Shown piece after piece: positions 24,312 to 57,261 of a stretch of DNA of 58,965 nt (position 1 is its first letter; each line of letters starts with the position of its first letter). Origin of the DNA: a virus. Under the pieces are notes generated by a model. That model had not been told where the DNA came from, searched no databases, and saw only the letters and a list, made by a program, of their open reading frames with translations. A program made the translations under genes and the position numbers. The DNA lies in the IMG/VR virus record IMGVR_UViG_3300030380_001149, positions 1-58,965 of that record. The stretch is one strand, 5' to 3'.

Positions 24312-27300
24312 AGAACAAGGTATCACTGCCCTAGGACCAGAGGATTTAGGTACTGTAGAGGTTACTCCAAATGTTGAAGAGACAGAACAAAAGCAATCTG
24401 CCTTTCCACAATTTACAGATGAAGCAAAAGCAACTAGAGGTATTGAAGATTTAAAAAAGTTTAAAAAAGGTATGAAACAAGCACTACCTTATGTAGGGCA
24501 GTTAGGTTTAGATTTAGTCTCAGGTTCTGGTATAGCTGAGTTTTTTGGACAACAAGCAGATATAGTCGAAGGAGAAAAAAGACCCTCTTACTTTGAAGCA
24601 TTTGATAGAACAGTAGACTACGCAAAAGAGGGTAAAACTAAAGAGGCTATAGTAAGTGGTGTTGACACAGCTCTGACTGCTATAGGAGGAGTTGGAGAGG
24701 GTGCTATGGCTGCAAGTGTTCTAACAGGAAAATTTGCTCCTATTATTGCTGGTCTAGGTTGGGGTGTATCTAAACTGTCAGATAAAGGAAAACTAGTTTT
24801 AAAGTCTACTAAAACTGGCAAAGAAGTTTTAGCTAATTTTAAAAGAGCAGATACTCCAGAAGGTGATGTAAAAGTTGACATTAAAAATGTAGAAATTCCA
24901 AAAGACGATACTTCGGATGAAATAAAGGCACTTGAAGATAATATTGATATTCCAACTTTTAGAACGGATGTTAAAGAACAAATTAAAGGTATCAAGGCTC
25001 TAGAACCAAGTGACATAGAAACAGACAATGTTGTTGATAAATTTTATCCTAATTTGAAAAATAAAGAAATTAAAGAAGAAGGTGGATTTGATTGGAAAAC
25101 TATTGATGACCCAATCAAACAATCAGATGTTCGTTTAAATAGGCATATTAAAAGATTAGAAGGTGTAAATAAAGGTGAGGATTATGTTGGTGGTCCAGTT
25201 AATAAAAGAACAGTTTTAAAATCAGATAATCCAGACAATCCTGATGTAGTTATAGGTAAACAAACTTTTGATGACTGGAAAAATACAAAAATAAAACAAT
25301 TTAAAAACAATAAAGAAGAAATATTTGAAGCATCGAAATGGTATGACAATTATGTTAAAGAAGTTAAAAGTATACCGAACATAACGAAAGAAGAAGCAGA
25401 CACTTTAATAGAAGCCTCTTTTTCTGCTAATATAAACCAAAGTCCAGAAGCAGCTTTAAAAACTGTTTTAGATGTAAAGGAACAATTACAAAAGGGTATA
25501 TCTTTAAATGATGTAAAAATTAAAGGTGTACCAATAATAAGAGAGTCTTTAAAAACAGTTGTCGGAAAACAAAAAGGTGGTAGAGGTTCTGGTATAGGTT
25601 CAAAAATATCTGCTTTTGTTGACAATGCTAAAGATAAAAATGTTCGTTCTGACATGGGTAACGACCCAAGAGGAGGAGAACCAGTTACTATTGATTTACA
25701 AACATTAAGAAGTAAAGGTGCTGTAGATAATATTTATAAAAACAAACTTAAAACATTAGGATATAAAAAAGAAGATGGTTCTGACATAGACGATATAAAA
25801 ATTGACTTTGAAAAATCTGGAACACAAGAAGCAAAGTATGATTATTTTGCTTTTGAAATGAATCAGTTAACTAATCATTTAAATGAAATAAATTGGTTAG
25901 GTAAAAATAATTGGAAAGCTAAAGAGGTACAAGCTATTGACTGGTTAGGGCAACAAAAAATATTTGGTAAAGCATTACCTGTTGAAGATATTTTTAATGT
26001 AAATATACAAAATATTACAATGGAGGCTGCTCCCTCTTCATCTTCACCTTTAGGTAAAAAAATGTTGAGTAGATATAAAGCCTTATCAACTACTGACCAA
26101 CAAAATATAAATGATGACATTACTAAAAAAGCAGTGGATATAGTTACAGAAAAAGAAGGAGAAGATTTAGGTAATGTAATTTTTGGAACTGGTGGTTGGA
26201 TGAGAGATGTAAACCCTACCACTGTAAAACAATCTTTGATGACACATGACAAAGCAAAAAAGGTGGCAACAAAATTAGGTGAGCTTTTACAACAAGACCA
26301 AGTATGGGTAAACACAACAAAAGGAGGATATACAAAAAATCCTGAGAACCATGAAATAGTGATTATAGAAGAAAACACTAATAACTTACAAAACAATGAA
26401 AAAATATTCGAACTTTTTGATAAGATTATAAAAAAAGAAGGTGGGGATATGATTCAAGGTTTTCACCCTATTACAACTAGAGATGGTAAAAGTGGTTTAA
26501 AAATATTAGTAGATAAAGAAGCTGTAAAAGATTATGCCACTGCGAACAAAATGAAAATGGCAGATGTTCATAAAATGATACAAGAATTTAAATTTGATGA
26601 CATTATTGAAGAATTAGATTATGATGTTAGAGTTGTTCAAAATGAAGCAACATTAAGTAAGATAAATACCTTATTTACAAAAGGAGATAAAGATGGGCAA
26701 AGTGTTAAGTCATATAGTGGTGATGGAAGGACAAGAGAGTCTGATACCGAAATACAGTCAAGGGCTTACTACAATCGTAACAGGGAGCAACTTGAGAAAG
26801 ACTTCGAAAACCAAGTCACAGAAGCAGAAAGAAGAACCAGAGACATTGACAGAACAAGAGAAGTTAGCGGTGTACAAGAACCGCTATTAAAAAAAGATTA
26901 TAGTGATGGGGTTGCTTTTTTTGATGATGTAATAGAAGGCAACCCAAAATACCAACCCTTAAAATCTTATGAAAATATTGTAGATACAAGCAACATAAAA
27001 AATGTTGAAAATATTTACGAACAAAAAACTAAAAATTTTTCAAACCATATAAATACAAGCATACCAACATTTAAAGAAACGCAAATAGCAACAGCAGATG
27101 CTGTTTCTAAAACTTTGCCTTCAAATGCAAAAATTATTGATATAGGTTCTACAGAAGGTGGTTTTATAAATACAATAGGTGCTTTAAGAAAAGATATTAA
27201 TGCTTTAGGTATAGACCCTAATAAAAAAGCCACAGAAGTATTTAACACTTTAAAAGAAGATAATACCGAAATTATACACAGAGCTTTTACTGATAATAAA

Positions 27301-30137: not shown

Positions 30138-31553
30138 CTATTCTAAGAAAGCTAATACTTCTTCATTCAAAGTTTGAGCAGATATTTGTATTTTGTTCTT
30201 TAATGCTTTCAGTATAAATTCGTCAATAGTTTTAATTGCTACTAAATCTATATAAGTAACTTTATCTGCAGTTTGACCTTTGCGATGGTTTCTAGCTTCT
30301 GCTTGTAGTCTCTCTTCTAAGTTGTAAGAGTTGTTAAAAAATATTTGTATGCTACTAGCATTTAAAGTCAATCCATATCCGCCTACACTAGGATTGCTAA
30401 CTAAGTATTTACAGTCTTTATCTTCATTAAATTTTTTTACTACACTGGGTCTGTCTTTTGTATCTCCATACAATGTTACAACAATATCTTTCTTATTTTT
30501 TTTATCATATTTCTTAGCTATCTCTTTTGCTATCAGTTCTATAGAGTATCGAAAAGTAGACCATATAATAACTTTACCATCTATCTCATCTAAGATATTT
30601 AGTAGCTCTCTTAACTTAGCATTGTCTAGTTCAACCAACTTGCCATCGTCACTATACACGAACCCAGAACAAACTTGTTGTAGCTTAGATATTTCTGTTA
30701 ACTTGTTTGTAATCGATGCTTGTTTATCTTGTATTATTACTCTTGCTTGTTCTTTTAAAATTTCATATGTGTTTCGTTGTTGGTTAGATAAAAATATATT
30801 TCTTCTCTGCCATACTTGTGGTGGTAAATCTAAACAATCTTTTTTTAAACATCGATAGGTAAAAGATTGCATCTTTTGTTCTAGGTCATCTAAGTTTATA
30901 AAATACAATGGGTATTCTATTTTTCTATTTCCAGATACTGGTTTACTATGCATAACACAGTACCGAGCTCGAAAAGAATAATACGATTTAAAACCTAATA
31001 TTTCTTCATCTAAAAATCCTATCTGACTCCATAAATCCAAAGGTGATTTAGTTATTGGTGTTCCTGTAAGTATTCTTTTGTATCTACATCCTTTAGAAAG
31101 TTTCGATAAGTTTTTACTTCTCTTTGCGGTTCTATTTTTTATAGTAGTGCTTTCATCAACTACTATCATAGTTTTCAATCCGTAAAACTTTATTAATTCG
31201 TATGCAGTCTCATATCCAGACTTATGACTAAATGCCTCTACATTCATTAAATACCATGTTAGACAGTCTGGTCTAGGTGCAAAAGTTTTATGTATCTTAT
31301 GCATGAAAATATAATTTTTAGAACTAGCATGTTTATCTATCTCTTCTTCCCAATTTGTATAAACACTATTAGGAGCAATCACAAACACAGTATCAATATT
31401 GTTGGTGTCATATAAGTATACTGCATTGTCGATAATAACTTTCGTCTTGCCAGTTCCTTGCTCCATGAACAAACCAAAAACTCGTTGTGTTGCTCCTTTT
31501 TTCAAAGCATCTCTTTGATGCTCCATAGGTTGTGTTTTATAATTATGCGACAT
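30138..31553 (-). CDS. SNF2/SF2-family DNA helicase
   Basis: A 471-residue protein with SF2 helicase motifs: Walker A EQGTGKT (31-37), Ia FVIAPNSVYTNWEEE, Walker B IVVDESTTIKN (DEST rather than DEAH), III ILTGTPITKSPLDLW, and the C-terminal lobe VIIWSTFRYSIELIA, NPSVGGYGLTLNAS and ARNHRKGQ with its arginine finger. SNF2-like ATPases remodel protein-DNA contacts; in phages they act in replication or recombination. It is the most distal gene of the leftward operon with ArdC. Confidence 0.9.
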   Translation of the reverse strand: MSHNYKTQPMEHQRDALKKGATQRVFGLFMEQGTGKTKVIIDNAVYLYDTNNIDTVFVIAPNSVYTNWEEEIDKHASSKNYIFMHKIHKTFAPRPDCLTWYLMNVEAFSHKSGYETAYELIKFYGLKTMIVVDESTTIKNRTAKRSKNLSKLSKGCRYKRILTGTPITKSPLDLWSQIGFLDEEILGFKSYYSFRARYCVMHSKPVSGNRKIEYPLYFINLDDLEQKMQSFTYRCLKKDCLDLPPQVWQRRNIFLSNQQRNTYEILKEQARVIIQDKQASITNKLTEISKLQQVCSGFVYSDDGKLVELDNAKLRELLNILDEIDGKVIIWSTFRYSIELIAKEIAKKYDKKNKKDIVVTLYGDTKDRPSVVKKFNEDKDCKYLVSNPSVGGYGLTLNASSIQIFFNNSYNLEERLQAEARNHRKGQTADKVTYIDLVAIKTIDEFILKALKNKIQISAQTLNEEVLAFLE

Positions 31554-41446: not shown

Positions 41447-41607
41447 GTATTACTAAATCTTATTGTCATAGTTATTATTATTTACAAATAGCTAAAAAAT
41501 TATCTAACTGTAATAATAAAGAATGGGATAAATTATCTAAAGTAGATAGAGATAATTTTGAAAAATTAGCAAGAAGTAAAGAGTATGAATTACTTATCAA
41601 TATGTAG
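41443..41607 (+). CDS. 54-residue hypothetical protein overlapping dcm start
   Basis: ATG overlaps the previous stop (ATGA) and the gene runs 23 bases into the methyltransferase. Two Cys and a Tyr-rich helix (YCHSYYYLQIAKKL). No function known. Confidence 0.5.
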   Translation: MSITKSYCHSYYYLQIAKKLSNCNNKEWDKLSKVDRDNFEKLARSKEYELLINM

Positions 41608-42703
41608 TGGAATAGAATCTTGTAGTGTAGCTTGGCATCCATTAGGTTGGAAGCCTATTGGTTTTTCTGAGATTGAAGAGTTTCGTTCTGCTGTGTTACA
41701 ATATCATTATCCAAAGGTAAAAAATTATGGCGACTTCACGAAAATCAAGAAAGAAACAATCGGAACAAGACCAGATGTCCTTGTGGGAGGAACCCCATGT
41801 GCAACCTTTAGCATTGCTGGACTTAGAAAAGGGTTTGCAGAAGATAGAGGAAACCTCGCACTTGAGTTTATTAGGCTTATTGATAGAATTAGACCCACTT
41901 GGGTCATCTGGGAAAATGTGCCCGGTATCTTGTCATCTAACGAAGGAAAAGACCTTGGAACCTTTCTCGGAGCATTGGCAGAACTCAGGTATGGGTTCGC
42001 CTATAGGGTTCTTGACACTCAATATGTCAGAACAAGTCGCTTTCCAAGAGCCATCCCACAAAGAAGAAGGCGTATCTTCGTTGTCGGACATATTAGAGAC
42101 TGGAAATGTCCAGCAAAGGTATTATTTGACCAAGAACCAATGCAAGAAAATCCTTATCCGAGCAGAACAAAGAGACAAAGAGTTGCCAAAGAATTTACAA
42201 ATCGCATTAGAAGAAGAGGTGACTACATAGAGGATGATGTATCATCGACTATCTGTGCTAGAGATTATAAGTCTGCTACTGACTTAGTGGTAATTAGAGA
42301 TAACCATACTAAAAGTAATGGTAAACCTTGGAGTGAAGAAGATGTATCTTTTACCTTAACTACTGGAGATATACCAGCAGTTACTGTATTAGAAACCTCG
42401 ACTCCAGATAAAACTGCTAGAGTATATAAAGATGAGGTGTCACCAACTTTGACTGCTATGACTGGTGGTAATAGACAACCAATAGTTTTTGGTAATCGAG
42501 TGAAGAAAATTAGAAGGTTGACTCCTATTGAATGTGAAAGGTTACAAGGTTTTCCAGATAATTATACACAAGTGCCCTATCGAGGTAAGGCAAAAGAAGA
42601 AGCTCCAGTATCTAAAAGATACGAGGCTTGTGGTAGAGCTATGTCTATAAATGTTATGGAGTGGTTAGGAACTAGAATACAAAAGGTACATGAAAATGAT
42701 TGA
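41585..42703 (+). CDS. dcm: DNA (cytosine-5-) methyltransferase
   Basis: A 372-residue C5 methyltransferase. Motif I NYLSICSGIESCSVAW (2-17), motif IV GGTPCATFS with nucleophile Cys72, motif VI WENVPG (Glu110), motif VIII QRRRRIFVVG, a target-recognition region at about 200-320, motif IX RLTPIECERLQGFP and motif X YEACGRAMSINVMEWLG. It likely methylates phage DNA to evade host restriction; the target sequence cannot be read from the protein. The segment 41740-42230 uses G+C-richer codons than either end and contains a long alternate-frame ORF (41727-42230). Start ATG overlaps the upstream small gene; the next gene (thyX) starts inside its end. Confidence 0.95.
   Translation: MNYLSICSGIESCSVAWHPLGWKPIGFSEIEEFRSAVLQYHYPKVKNYGDFTKIKKETIGTRPDVLVGGTPCATFSIAGLRKGFAEDRGNLALEFIRLIDRIRPTWVIWENVPGILSSNEGKDLGTFLGALAELRYGFAYRVLDTQYVRTSRFPRAIPQRRRRIFVVGHIRDWKCPAKVLFDQEPMQENPYPSRTKRQRVAKEFTNRIRRRGDYIEDDVSSTICARDYKSATDLVVIRDNHTKSNGKPWSEEDVSFTLTTGDIPAVTVLETSTPDKTARVYKDEVSPTLTAMTGGNRQPIVFGNRVKKIRRLTPIECERLQGFPDNYTQVPYRGKAKEEAPVSKRYEACGRAMSINVMEWLGTRIQKVHEND
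41727..42230 (+). CDS. Candidate overlapping gene in the +1 frame of dcm
   Basis: A 167-residue ORF wholly inside dcm. ATG 41727 is preceded by CCAAAGGTAAAAAATT, a plausible ribosome binding site. The product includes SLSDILETGNVQQRYYLTKN and then CKKILIRAEQRDKELP. I recall the equivalent pattern (YxLSxKACxGILRRAExRGKxLP) from proteins annotated near phage cytosine methyltransferases. Conservation could be a by-product of the methyltransferase frame, since both derive from the same DNA. The raised G+C here is expected where two frames are constrained. Treat as a candidate. Confidence 0.45.
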   Translation: MATSRKSRKKQSEQDQMSLWEEPHVQPLALLDLEKGLQKIEETSHLSLLGLLIELDPLGSSGKMCPVSCHLTKEKTLEPFSEHWQNSGMGSPIGFLTLNMSEQVAFQEPSHKEEGVSSLSDILETGNVQQRYYLTKNQCKKILIRAEQRDKELPKNLQIALEEEVTT

Positions 42704-43319
42704 AGTACAATTAATTGATAAAATGGGGTCAGACTTATCTGTCGTTAATTCAGCTAGAGTATCGTTTTCTAAAATGCATACAGAAATACAAAATAACGAT
42801 GAAAAGTTAATTAAATATTTAGCTGTTCATAATCATTGGTCACCATTTGGTCATGCTTCATTACAGTTTAGAATTAAAGCACCAATATTTGTGGCTAGAC
42901 AATTAGTAAAACATCAAGTGGGTTTAGTTTGGAATGAAGTTAGTCGTAGATATGTTGATAATGAGCCAGAGTTTTATGTGCCAAAAATGTGGAGGGAAAG
43001 ACATAAAGATAAGAAACAAGGGTCTACAAATACTGAAGTAGAATATAATATTGATGCTATTATGGAAGTGATAAAAAAAACATATGAAGATATGTTAAAA
43101 AAAAATATAGCTCCAGAATTAGCTAGGATGATTTTACCACAAAACATGATTACAGAATGGATTTGGTCTGGAACATTGTTTGCCTTTTCAAGAGTATGTA
43201 ATTTAAGAAATAAAAGTGATGCACAAAAAGAAACCACTATAGTAACCAATAGTATTTCAAAAGCCCTGTGCAAAACTTTTCCACTAAGTAGCAAATATTT
43301 ATTGGAAGATTATGTTTGA
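42690..43319 (+). CDS. thyX: FAD-dependent thymidylate synthase ThyX
   Basis: A 209-residue ThyX. Key features: ARVSFSKMH, NHWSPFGHASLQFRIKAP, and the signature VARQLVKHQVGLVWNEVSRR, a KHQ-x7-S variant of the canonical RHR-x7-S; then ARMILPQNMITEWIWSGTLF, with Arg and dUMP-site residues. It converts dUMP to dTMP with methylene-tetrahydrofolate and FAD/NADPH, supplying dTMP for this A+T-rich genome. Starts inside the end of dcm. Confidence 0.95.
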   Translation: MKMIEVQLIDKMGSDLSVVNSARVSFSKMHTEIQNNDEKLIKYLAVHNHWSPFGHASLQFRIKAPIFVARQLVKHQVGLVWNEVSRRYVDNEPEFYVPKMWRERHKDKKQGSTNTEVEYNIDAIMEVIKKTYEDMLKKNIAPELARMILPQNMITEWIWSGTLFAFSRVCNLRNKSDAQKETTIVTNSISKALCKTFPLSSKYLLEDYV

Positions 43320-49462: not shown

Positions 49463-51834
49463 TGGATGAAGAAAACACACAAATTAATGAGGAGGTGACT
49501 GATGAAGAAGTTACTGAAGAAACTCCAGTCGTTGACGAAGAAGTTGATGTTGAAGTTAAAGAACCTTCTGAAGAAAACGAAGAGAGCCAAGAAGAAAAAA
49601 TAAAAGAGTTAGTTGATGAAGTAAAAATATTTTATTCTAACTTAGCCGAGGATATGGATGAAAGAGTTCTTGGAAGAATTTCAAGTGAACTAATATCAGA
49701 TTACAAAAAAGATAAAGAGAGTCGAAGTGACTGGGAAAAGTCTTATACCTCTGGGTTAGACTTATTGGGGTTTAAGTACGACAATGAGAGTAGACCATTT
49801 CAAGGTGCGAGTTCCGTTACACATCCACTACTTGCAGAATCTGTAACACAGTTTCAAGCTCAAGCCTATAAAGAATTGTTACCTTCTGATGGTCCTGTTC
49901 GTACTCAAGTGGTAGGGGAGCAAACCAGAGAAAGAGAAGACCAAGCTCAACGAGTCAAAGAGTTTATGAATTATATGATAATGGAACAGATGGAAGAGTA
50001 TACTCCAGACTTTGACCAATTATTATTTTATTTACCATTAGCTGGTTCTGCGTTTAAAAAAATATATTATGATGAAGTGATGCAAAGGGCGATTGCTAAA
50101 TTTATACCAGCAGAAGATTTAATAGTTCCCTACTATGCAACCGACTTAAAAGATTGTGAACGAATTACTCATGTTGTGAAGATGAGTGAAAATGACATAT
50201 TAAAAAAACAACGCACAGGTTTTTATAGAGATGTTGAAATTTTACCTAGTCGCATGGATGACGATGCGGTGCAAGAAAAATATGATTCTATAGAAGGAGT
50301 GAGTGCGAGTGCAGATAAAGAATACCAGTTTAATATTTTGGAGATGCATGTTGATTTAGATTTAGAAGAGTATGAATCAGAAGTCTCAGAAAAAAATATT
50401 AAAGTACCTTACATCGTAACGATTGATGAAGGTTCACAAGAAGTGTTAGCTATCTATCGTAACTACGATATGAACGATGCGTTAATGAAAAGAAAAGAAT
50501 ATTTTGTACATTACAAGTTTTTACCCGGTCTTGGGTTCTATGGCTTTGGTTTAATACACATGATTGGTGGATTATCAAAAACTGCAACTGCTGCATTGAG
50601 ACAATTATTAGATGCTGGTACTTTGAGTAATTTACCTGCTGGTTTTAAGTCAAGAGGTATGCGAATTAGGGATGATGACCAACCTTTTCAACCAGGTGAG
50701 TTTAGAGATGTTGATGCACCAGGTGGTAATATCAAAGACCAATTTCAAATTTTACCATTTAAAGAGCCAAGTTCTGTTTTATTTTCATTGTTAGGGTTTG
50801 TTGTACAAGCTGGACAAAGATTTGCAGCTATAACAGACAATGCGATAGGCAACGATGCACAAAATAGAGCAGTTGGAACGACTATTGCCCTCTTGGAACG
50901 AGGCTCAAGGGTCATGAGTGCTATTCACAAACGATGTTACTATGCAATGAGACAAGAATTTCGTCTTTTAGCTAGTATTTTTGGTACATATTTACCACCA
51001 ATCTATCCATATGCTGTGTATGGCGGTAATCGACTGATAAAAGTAGCAGATTTTTCACCAGAAGTGGATGTAATACCAGTTGCTGACCCAAATATCTTCT
51101 CAATGGCTCAAAGAGTCACACTTGCACAGACACAATTACAGATTGCACAGTCAAATCCACAATTACACAATGTTCGAGAAGCATATAGAAGGGTATACGA
51201 AGCATTAGGCACGAAACAAATTGATAGTTTGTTAAAACCAGAAAGAATAGAACAACCTTTAGACCCAGCTATTGAAAATGCAATGGCATTACGCATGGAA
51301 ATACCAAAAGCATATCCTGAACAGAACCACGATGCACATATAATTTCACATACTGCATTTATTAAGAGTAGAATGGTACAAATTAATCCCATGGTGTATG
51401 CGTTATTACAAGCACATATTATGGAGCATGTATCGTTTAAAGCTAGAGCTTTAATATTACAAGAATTACAAGCCAAACCAGAAACATTAAAGTTACAACA
51501 AGATAATCCAGAAGCATTTTTGGTGATAACGGAATCTTTGGTTGCTGATAAGATTGCACAATTAGTTTCTGAGTTACAATTATTAGAGGGAGCTGATGAA
51601 AAGAAAGACCCACTAGTTCAACTTAAACAACAAGAGATGGATTTACGAGCTTTAGATATGCAAAGAAAAATTCAAGAGCATGTAGACATTGAAGAAAGAA
51701 AGATGGGAGAGTTTGAACAGAAACTTGATTTAGAAAAAATGAAACGAGAAGATAGTGAAGAACAAGGTGAAGAAAGAATACGAATAGCAGAAGAAAAATT
51801 AAAAGTAGCAAAGGAAAAAAATGAGAAGAAATAA
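49462..51834 (+). CDS. Portal protein
   Basis: A 790-residue portal. An acidic, disordered N-terminus (about 1-55) precedes the conserved core: SDWEKSYTSGLDLLGFKYDN, HPLLAESVTQFQAQAYKELL, YLPLAGSAFKKIYYDEVM, FIPAEDLIVPYYATDLKDCE and FYGFGLIHMIGGLSKTATA. The C-terminal 150 residues form a long charged helix (VDIEERKMGEFEQKLDLEKM), like the barrel of P22-type portals. It forms the dodecameric DNA gate and the base for the adaptors encoded at 3091/4158. Length suits this class of podovirus portal. Confidence 0.93.
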   Translation: MDEENTQINEEVTDEEVTEETPVVDEEVDVEVKEPSEENEESQEEKIKELVDEVKIFYSNLAEDMDERVLGRISSELISDYKKDKESRSDWEKSYTSGLDLLGFKYDNESRPFQGASSVTHPLLAESVTQFQAQAYKELLPSDGPVRTQVVGEQTREREDQAQRVKEFMNYMIMEQMEEYTPDFDQLLFYLPLAGSAFKKIYYDEVMQRAIAKFIPAEDLIVPYYATDLKDCERITHVVKMSENDILKKQRTGFYRDVEILPSRMDDDAVQEKYDSIEGVSASADKEYQFNILEMHVDLDLEEYESEVSEKNIKVPYIVTIDEGSQEVLAIYRNYDMNDALMKRKEYFVHYKFLPGLGFYGFGLIHMIGGLSKTATAALRQLLDAGTLSNLPAGFKSRGMRIRDDDQPFQPGEFRDVDAPGGNIKDQFQILPFKEPSSVLFSLLGFVVQAGQRFAAITDNAIGNDAQNRAVGTTIALLERGSRVMSAIHKRCYYAMRQEFRLLASIFGTYLPPIYPYAVYGGNRLIKVADFSPEVDVIPVADPNIFSMAQRVTLAQTQLQIAQSNPQLHNVREAYRRVYEALGTKQIDSLLKPERIEQPLDPAIENAMALRMEIPKAYPEQNHDAHIISHTAFIKSRMVQINPMVYALLQAHIMEHVSFKARALILQELQAKPETLKLQQDNPEAFLVITESLVADKIAQLVSELQLLEGADEKKDPLVQLKQQEMDLRALDMQRKIQEHVDIEERKMGEFEQKLDLEKMKREDSEEQGEERIRIAEEKLKVAKEKNEKK

Positions 51835-56349: not shown

Positions 56350-57261
56350 ATGGCAATATCTAGAAGTCAATTAGTTAAAGAGTTAGAGCCAGGTTTAAAT
56401 GCCTTGTTCGGACTCGAATATAATCGTTATGAAAATGAACATGCTGAAATCTTTACTACAGAAACATCTGACAGAGCTTTTGAAGAAGAAGTAATGTTAA
56501 GTGGTTTTGGTTCTGCACCTGTAAAATCAGAAGGTGCGAATGTGGTATTTGACCAAGCTAATGAGGCTTTCACAGCGAGATACACACACGAAACTATCGC
56601 ATTAGCATTTGCAATTACTGAAGAAGCTATTGAAGATAACTTGTATGACAGACTAGCTGGTCGATATACAAGAGCACTAGCTAGAAGTATGGCAAACACC
56701 AAGCAAGTAAAAGCTGCTAATGTATTAAACAATGCTTTTGACAGTAACTTCAAAGGCGGTGATGGAAAAGAGTTGTGTTCTTTATTACATCCATTAGCTA
56801 ATGGTGGTGTAATAGAAAACACCCTTAACACCGCAGCAGATTTAAGTGAAACATCTTTAGAGCAATCTTTAATTGATATTTCAGCTTTCGTAGATGAAAG
56901 AGGATTAAAGATAGCAATGCAAGGTGTTAAGCTAATAGTTCCAAAAGAACTACAGTTTACTGCTGAAAGAATTTTAAAGTCACCACAAAGAGTCGGTACT
57001 GCTGATAATGACATTAATGCTATGGCAAACATGGGTATGATACCTCAAGGCTATAGAGTTAATCATTATCTAACAGACACTGATGCTTTCTTCATTATGA
57101 CAGATGCACCTAACGGACTAAAACAATTTGTTAGAAGTCCTATTAAGACTGCAATCGAAGGAGACTTTGATTCTGGTAATGTAAGATTTAAAGCAAGAGA
57201 AAGATATTCTTTTGGGTTCTCAGACTTCAGAGGAATTTTTGGCTCACCTGGTGCAGCTTAA
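56350..57261 (+). CDS. Major capsid protein (HK97-fold)
   Basis: A 303-residue protein: N-arm/E-loop region (FGLEYNRYENEHAEIFTTET, FDQANEAFTARYTHETIALA), axial/peripheral domains (ARSMANTKQVKAANVLNNAF, GVKLIVPKELQFTAERILKS), and the C-terminal KTAIEGDFDSGNVRFKARER ending SDFRGIFGSPGAA. These are features of HK97-fold capsid proteins of the Mu gpT/marine podovirus type. It follows the decoration gene by 3 bases and ends before a strong terminator. Expected to be the most abundant virion protein. Confidence 0.88.
   Translation: MAISRSQLVKELEPGLNALFGLEYNRYENEHAEIFTTETSDRAFEEEVMLSGFGSAPVKSEGANVVFDQANEAFTARYTHETIALAFAITEEAIEDNLYDRLAGRYTRALARSMANTKQVKAANVLNNAFDSNFKGGDGKELCSLLHPLANGGVIENTLNTAADLSETSLEQSLIDISAFVDERGLKIAMQGVKLIVPKELQFTAERILKSPQRVGTADNDINAMANMGMIPQGYRVNHYLTDTDAFFIMTDAPNGLKQFVRSPIKTAIEGDFDSGNVRFKARERYSFGFSDFRGIFGSPGAA

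Follow-up and report, generated by a model that had tools for sequence, protein, structure and literature searches.

A conserved overprinted gene in the +1 frame of phage C5-cytosine methyltransferase genes, probably encoding a partner of the enzyme

Here, we describe a 167-codon open reading frame that lies wholly within the +1 frame of the dcm gene of a marine virus and that evolution treats as a gene. The frame is open in 44 of 44 distinct Dcm genes of its family, silent Dcm changes that would interrupt it are about 90-fold depleted, and the same hidden ORF is found inside the methyltransferase genes of very different phages, including dmt of phage P1. We consider it almost certain that this is a genuine, old overprinted gene, although there are no expression data. 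Its product is most likely an accessory subunit of the methyltransferase in whose gene it lies, but this role is an inference and is considerably less certain than the coding status.

The window, i.e. the whole stretch of DNA that was analysed, is a 58,965-base virus record. The features discussed below are as follows:

41585..42703 (+): dcm, a C5-cytosine DNA methyltransferase of 372 aa, with its motifs, as usually named, intact in its own frame (I 41606-41620, IV 41786-41812, VI 41912-41926, VIII 42059-42088, IX 42512-42559, X 42620-42664)
41713..41717 (+): Shine-Dalgarno-like AAAGG, 9 nt before the ATG (AGAGG or GAGG in most relatives)
41718..41720 (+): TAA in the +1 frame, two codons before the ATG
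41727..42230 (+): overprinted gene in the +1 frame of dcm, 167 aa
41727..42077 (+): N-terminal part of the product (residues 1-117), predicted mostly disordered, over Dcm motifs IV-VIII
42078..42227 (+): predicted helical C-terminal domain of the product (residues 118-167), over the end of Dcm motif VIII and the start of the variable/TRD region

The host gene matches PF00145 (1.4e-50) and TIGR00675 (1.2e-48). It is followed by a 209-aa ORF at 42690-43319 that overlaps its end and that, by eye, looks like a flavin-dependent thymidylate synthase (ThyX).

Evidence that the +1 frame is coding

The initial annotation proposed that the ORF might be a real overprinted gene, for instance a partner of the methyltransferase, and our analysis supports this interpretation. 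It had also noted that the segment is G+C-richer than either end of dcm, which we confirm (0.431, against 0.331 in the 5' part of dcm, 0.364 in the 3' part and 0.328 in the window). Length alone is not remarkable. The window contains 21 stop-free stretches of 100 or more codons nested in longer ORFs, three of them longer than this one (176-205 codons) and one equal, although those lie antisense to their host ORFs and this is the only same-strand one of the 21. Other long stop-free stretches (169-205 codons) antisense to longer ORFs are at 56430-57044 (-), 25878-26453 (-), 30328-30855 (+) and 51111-51617 (-). However, when the codons of the window dcm were shuffled among synonyms, keeping the same protein and the same codons, the +1 length was reached in 0 of 1000 shuffles and the +2 length in 132 of 1000.

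Two scans of viral contigs, one with the ORF product and one with Dcm, gave, together with the window's own gene, 62 Dcm genes with a start, of which 44 are distinct over the first 225 codons and 40-100% identical to ours. In all 44 the +1 frame is open for 164-213 codons, and in 36 the first ATG stands two codons after an in-frame stop. In synonymous shuffles, 26 of the 44 genes never reach the observed length in 1000 attempts and 43 of 44 reach it in at most 27; the exception is the very G+C-rich locus L020, which reaches it in 291. The +2 frame is at or under 50 of 1000 in 6 of 44, with lengths of 62-81 codons.

Substitution patterns point in the same direction. Synonymous codon identity is 0.738 within the ORF against 0.602 upstream and 0.538 downstream. 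Silent Dcm changes that would put a stop into the +1 frame occur in 63 of 23,695 opportunities inside the ORF, but in 1352 of 4680 and 2184 of 9518 outside it, with the caveat that pairs of sequences are not independent. Dcm-changing first-position transitions that are silent in the +1 frame are frequent inside the ORF (8.2%), and those that are not silent are rarer (2.8%), whereas downstream the two are alike (3.9% and 3.4%). For first-position transversions the contrast is weak (3.3% against 2.1% inside, 3.8% against 1.6% upstream and 1.3% against 2.4% downstream). Since every Dcm third-position change alters the +1 residue in this frame, a non/syn ratio carries no information here, and a comparison of conservative with radical +1 changes showed no difference inside the segment (0.143 against 0.143). 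Among close relatives, the third Dcm position, normally the freest, changes at 0.089 in the 3' half and 0.158 in the 5' half of the ORF against 0.299 downstream; in the 3' half it lies below the first position (0.121). Both frames are under purifying selection, and in the 3' half the Dcm third positions, which are second positions of the +1 frame, are held more tightly than the first.

An independent set of 16 distinct P1-like sequences shows the same reversal. In the 3' half of the ORF, changes at Dmt positions 1/2/3 are 0.102/0.074/0.058, whereas the last 200 codons of dmt show 0.012/0.014/0.082; the pattern in the 5' half is ordinary (0.029/0.013/0.044). In the 3' half of the ORF the +1 protein is therefore the better-guarded one. 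One divergent plasmid, left out of this set, has two stops at codons 4-5 of the P1-numbered frame, before a second ATG, so the P1 start may be its sixth codon.

Distribution and predicted structure of the product

A tblastn search with the product finds 95 phage records. The same +1 ORF is present in dmt of phage P1 (1793-2278 of our locus L072), in CobraSix, Cronobacter phage JK004 and a gut Heliusvirales phage, in Streptococcus phage 5093 and in Mycobacterium phage Dove, whose Dcm is split into two ORFs while the +1 ORF is whole. The ORF is unannotated in the P1 reference record. Additionally, 530 plasmid records match the P1 product, 521 of them over at least 80% of its length and 493 at 60% identity or more. 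Some P1-like phage-plasmids carry an in-frame insertion of about 1 kb at codon 78 of dmt, just upstream of the hidden ORF (L405:411-1430, with an insertion at the same codon in loci L406, L409, L410, L412, L076, L153 and L164). The translation of the L405 copy, the only one scanned, matches LAGLIDADG_3 and, below cut-off, Hint_2 and Intein_splicing, so it looks like an intein.

To avoid selecting genes by the ORF itself, we sampled Dcm genes with two Dcm profiles whose search patterns lie outside the overlap, taking the 80 best loci for each. The query alignments consist of ORF-bearing genes, so the sample leans towards their relatives. Of the 160 loci, 155 could be assessed and 5 were dropped because the Dcm N-terminus was missing. 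Among 129 full-length Dcm genes, 111 have a +1 stretch of 100 codons or more, 17 have one under 75 and one lies between; in the 87 with G+C below 50% the figures are 70, 16 and 1, while the +2 stretch is under 100 codons in 85 of 87. Of 69 distinct A+T-rich ORF-bearing genes, 58 are significant against synonymous shuffles at p<=0.01, whereas none of the 17 without the ORF is. The C-terminal domain scores above 10 bits in 104 of the 129. Presence or absence, defined by length alone, needs 2 changes on a tree of 159 Dcm proteins, about 30 of which were added because they bear the ORF (shuffled mean 17.3), and 3 changes on a poorly resolved tree of 109 proteins from the sample chosen outside the overlap, built without the overlapped columns (shuffled mean 16.1). 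One origin is therefore possible, but it is not shown.

The AlphaFold2 model of the full product has a mean pLDDT of 60. The N-terminal part is predicted to be mostly disordered (block means 41-64) apart from weak helices at residues 28-43 and 48-54, and part of the similarity in this half follows from Dcm motifs IV-VIII. The C-terminal 50 residues form a predicted helical domain (helices 119-125, 136-149 and 155-166), with block means of 90-94 over residues 131-167; modelled alone, the domain has a pLDDT of 79. Its consensus is LSDILE..xxPQRYYLSxKACxGILRRAExRGKxLPxxLxxAL, represented in our domain profile by 90 rows, and the domain is also found in phages of Streptococcus, Mycobacterium, enterobacteria (P1 dmt) and gut Clostridia. 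The initial annotation had placed proteins with YxLSxKACxGILRRAExRGKxLP near phage cytosine methyltransferases; the motif is right, but it sits over the methyltransferase genes, not beside them. Over this domain the +1 protein is more conserved than Dcm, at 0.523 against 0.452 in the 44 window-family genes and 0.670 against 0.449 in 158 others. Most of these others were chosen by a motif of the domain, and the columns were aligned on the +1 protein; without the nine motif columns the values are 0.605 against 0.412.

No solved fold was matched. Searches of the PDB gave a best E of 9.8 for the full model, with no VIA hit, and a best E of 5.1 for the domain alone, with an uninformative Z of 2.4, and a PDB sequence search gave only chance-level matches (DNMT1, E 0.41). 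Pfam and NCBIfam gave no family for the window product, and NCBIfam gave none above cut-off for three relatives. The best BFVD hit is Mycobacterium phage Thibault gp104 (E 0.052), itself a piece of the +1 frame. In this phage (JN201525; L521:344-2145) the methylase annotation is interrupted by an HNH endonuclease gene (gp103), and gp104, annotated as a hypothetical protein, holds the C-terminal domain of the +1 ORF, so one piece of the hidden gene is already annotated there.

Initiation and probable role

We infer that ribosomes start internally on the dcm mRNA and make the 167-aa protein together with Dcm. In 16 cluster representatives of the window family, the mean duplex energy of the Shine-Dalgarno (SD) site is -6.64 against -2.72 in synonymous shuffles, and the SD-stop-ATG cassette is present in 33 of 44 genes. 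The site is also strong in our A4 group (-6.62 against -3.60, 54 representatives) but weak in two other groups, CT-scan and A3 (-3.37 against -2.16, 80; -3.46 against -2.45, 40), and over all 194 only 15 reach p<0.05. Internal initiation is thus well supported in the window family.

The linkage to the methyltransferase is tight. All 160 best profile hits lie over a Dcm gene. A profile search of 383 prokaryote genomes gave 25 places in 20 genomes; of the 10 places examined, eight carry Dcm, and two (L499 and L501; E 1.5e-4 and 4e-4) have no Dcm and do not show the motif convincingly. In three of these bacterial loci (L496-L498) only profile positions 4-35 are kept and a different tail follows, with Dcm still overlapping, and in L503 the Dcm lacks its N-terminal part. 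No convincing copy outside a Dcm gene was found among those examined. That no stand-alone homologue was found among those examined fits an obligate partner of the enzyme and does not undo the coding evidence, which is independent of it.

Rare variants provide further support. In 386 loci with the domain over a Dcm gene, duplicate contigs not removed, motif IX by profile is in the Dcm ORF in 342, in another downstream ORF in 24, off the contig in 8, not found in 7 and in the +1 ORF itself in 5. A stricter pattern count found it in the Dcm ORF of 256, in the +1 ORF of 2 and in neither for 128. In loci L500 and L506 the +1 ORF ends with motif IX while motif X is back in the Dcm frame, and in L169, L205 and L231 it continues into TRD, IX and X. 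Such a +1 product has to bind the other chain for an active enzyme. A sequencing frameshift can mimic this arrangement, so we regard it as a lead and no proof, although in L500 and L506 the open +1 length is itself reached in only 0 and 1 of 1000 shuffles. The model we favour, with reasonable but not high confidence, is that the disordered N half tethers the small helical domain, which docks on the Dcm made from the same message and acts as an accessory (beta-like) subunit, helping or controlling folding, DNA binding or activity. The window Dcm has all motifs in its own frame, however, and does not need the ORF for motif IX.

A real overprinted gene whose product works apart from the methyltransferase, for example as an anti-restriction factor or a regulator, and merely travels with it, is the strongest alternative, though we think it unlikely. 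All of the coding evidence holds equally for it, the window Dcm is complete without the ORF, and small phage proteins encoded with methyltransferases could plausibly be anti-defence factors. On the other hand, an independent protein should sometimes have moved, yet no convincing copy outside a Dcm gene was found across very divergent phages among those examined, and the +1 ORF carries methyltransferase motifs in five loci. It is much less likely that the product is made mainly as a Dcm hybrid by +1 ribosomal frameshifting. Some homologues (L027, L028 and L020) have +1 frames that open well upstream of the first ATG, and L506 has Dcm motif I in the +1 frame, but the stop two codons before the ATG in 36 of 44 window-family genes leaves about three codons for a shift, and in 33 of 44 an SD stands at the right distance. 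Finally, that the frame is open and similar only because the Dcm protein, or an RNA/DNA element in its gene, is conserved is in our view already refuted by the shuffles in A+T-rich genes, the avoidance of stops, the existence of Dcm genes that lack the ORF and look like the shuffles, and the reversed position pattern, even though in G+C-rich genes, from loci chosen by the motif of the domain, the openness is mostly not significant (p<0.05 in 20% of 60 genes at 55-60% G+C and 8% of 53 above 60%).

As far as we know, long same-strand overprinted genes shared by phages of several bacterial phyla are rare. Our searches of the open-access literature, which did not extend to subscription journals, gave no description of this ORF (papers consulted included PMC3404938, PMC3439449, PMC6456624, PMC12707154 and, for M.BatI, PMC8936443). 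If the product is a subunit, many phage methyltransferases have been cloned, assayed and annotated without recognising half of the system, and phenotypes of dcm/dmt mutants may belong to the hidden gene. More speculatively, one ancient overprinting event in phage C5 methyltransferases may have created a family of +1-frame subunits now carried by a large share of such genes, P1 dmt among them, forming a hidden second half of the enzymes, and the EcoHK31I-like split enzymes may have arisen when the hidden frame took over motif IX. This remains a tentative possibility. The overprinted gene also offers a route from a one-chain to a two-chain enzyme through the other reading frame.

Comparison with known systems

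The closest arrangement is the M.EcoHK31I-type two-polypeptide C5 methyltransferase, matched here by the PHROG pair phrog_363 / phrog_1008. M.EcoHK31I is described as naturally split (PMC3439449), with only motif IX in the small polypeptide (PMC3404938). The beta gene of that enzyme probably also lies in an alternate frame of the large one, and we infer the link between the enzyme and the PHROG pair from the same split of motifs. phrog_1008 led us to three loci with extensive overlaps (L401:1245-2156, L402:1347-2528 and L403:1230-2489), and a scan for further examples confirmed 591, of which the 80 best (L416-L495) were kept. In 80 of 80 of these viral loci a beta-like ORF, often with LNPxxSRWLMG, overlaps an alpha-like ORF in the +1 frame; alpha lacks the canonical motif-IX pattern in 80 of 80, and beta has a IX-like pattern in 50 of 80. 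The window ORF shares the position in the +1 frame of a C5 methyltransferase gene, but the window Dcm keeps motif IX (residues 310-325), and the ORF ends before it and has a different C-terminal domain. Profile comparison of the two small-protein families finds no detectable homology (hhalign probability 0.6%), although weak phrog_1008 matches over the N half exist (E 0.0036 over residues 4-114, and 6.4e-5 in a one-genome search). The window ORF is probably not a member of the beta family, although it may work like one.

phrog_16143 (139 aa), labelled DNA methyltransferase, is the overprinted family seen from the streptococcal side. The Streptococcus phage 5093 +1 ORF scores 198.5 bits against it and the window ORF 30 bits (E 6e-7, profile positions 4-136 of 139), whereas the P1 product matches no PHROG. 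The label describes a methyltransferase, and nothing in the library entry says that the protein comes from another frame.

In the M.AquI-type split C5 methyltransferase (PMC3404938), the enzyme is divided between two ORFs. L169, L205 and L231 similarly have motifs I-VIII in one ORF and TRD-IX-X in the next frame, but in these three the second ORF begins with the window-type domain, and the window Dcm is not split. With overprinted genes of viruses in general (PMC8227390), the window ORF shares a protein from a second frame inside an older gene, with a predicted disordered part; it differs in being present in phages of several bacterial phyla rather than being a young orphan.
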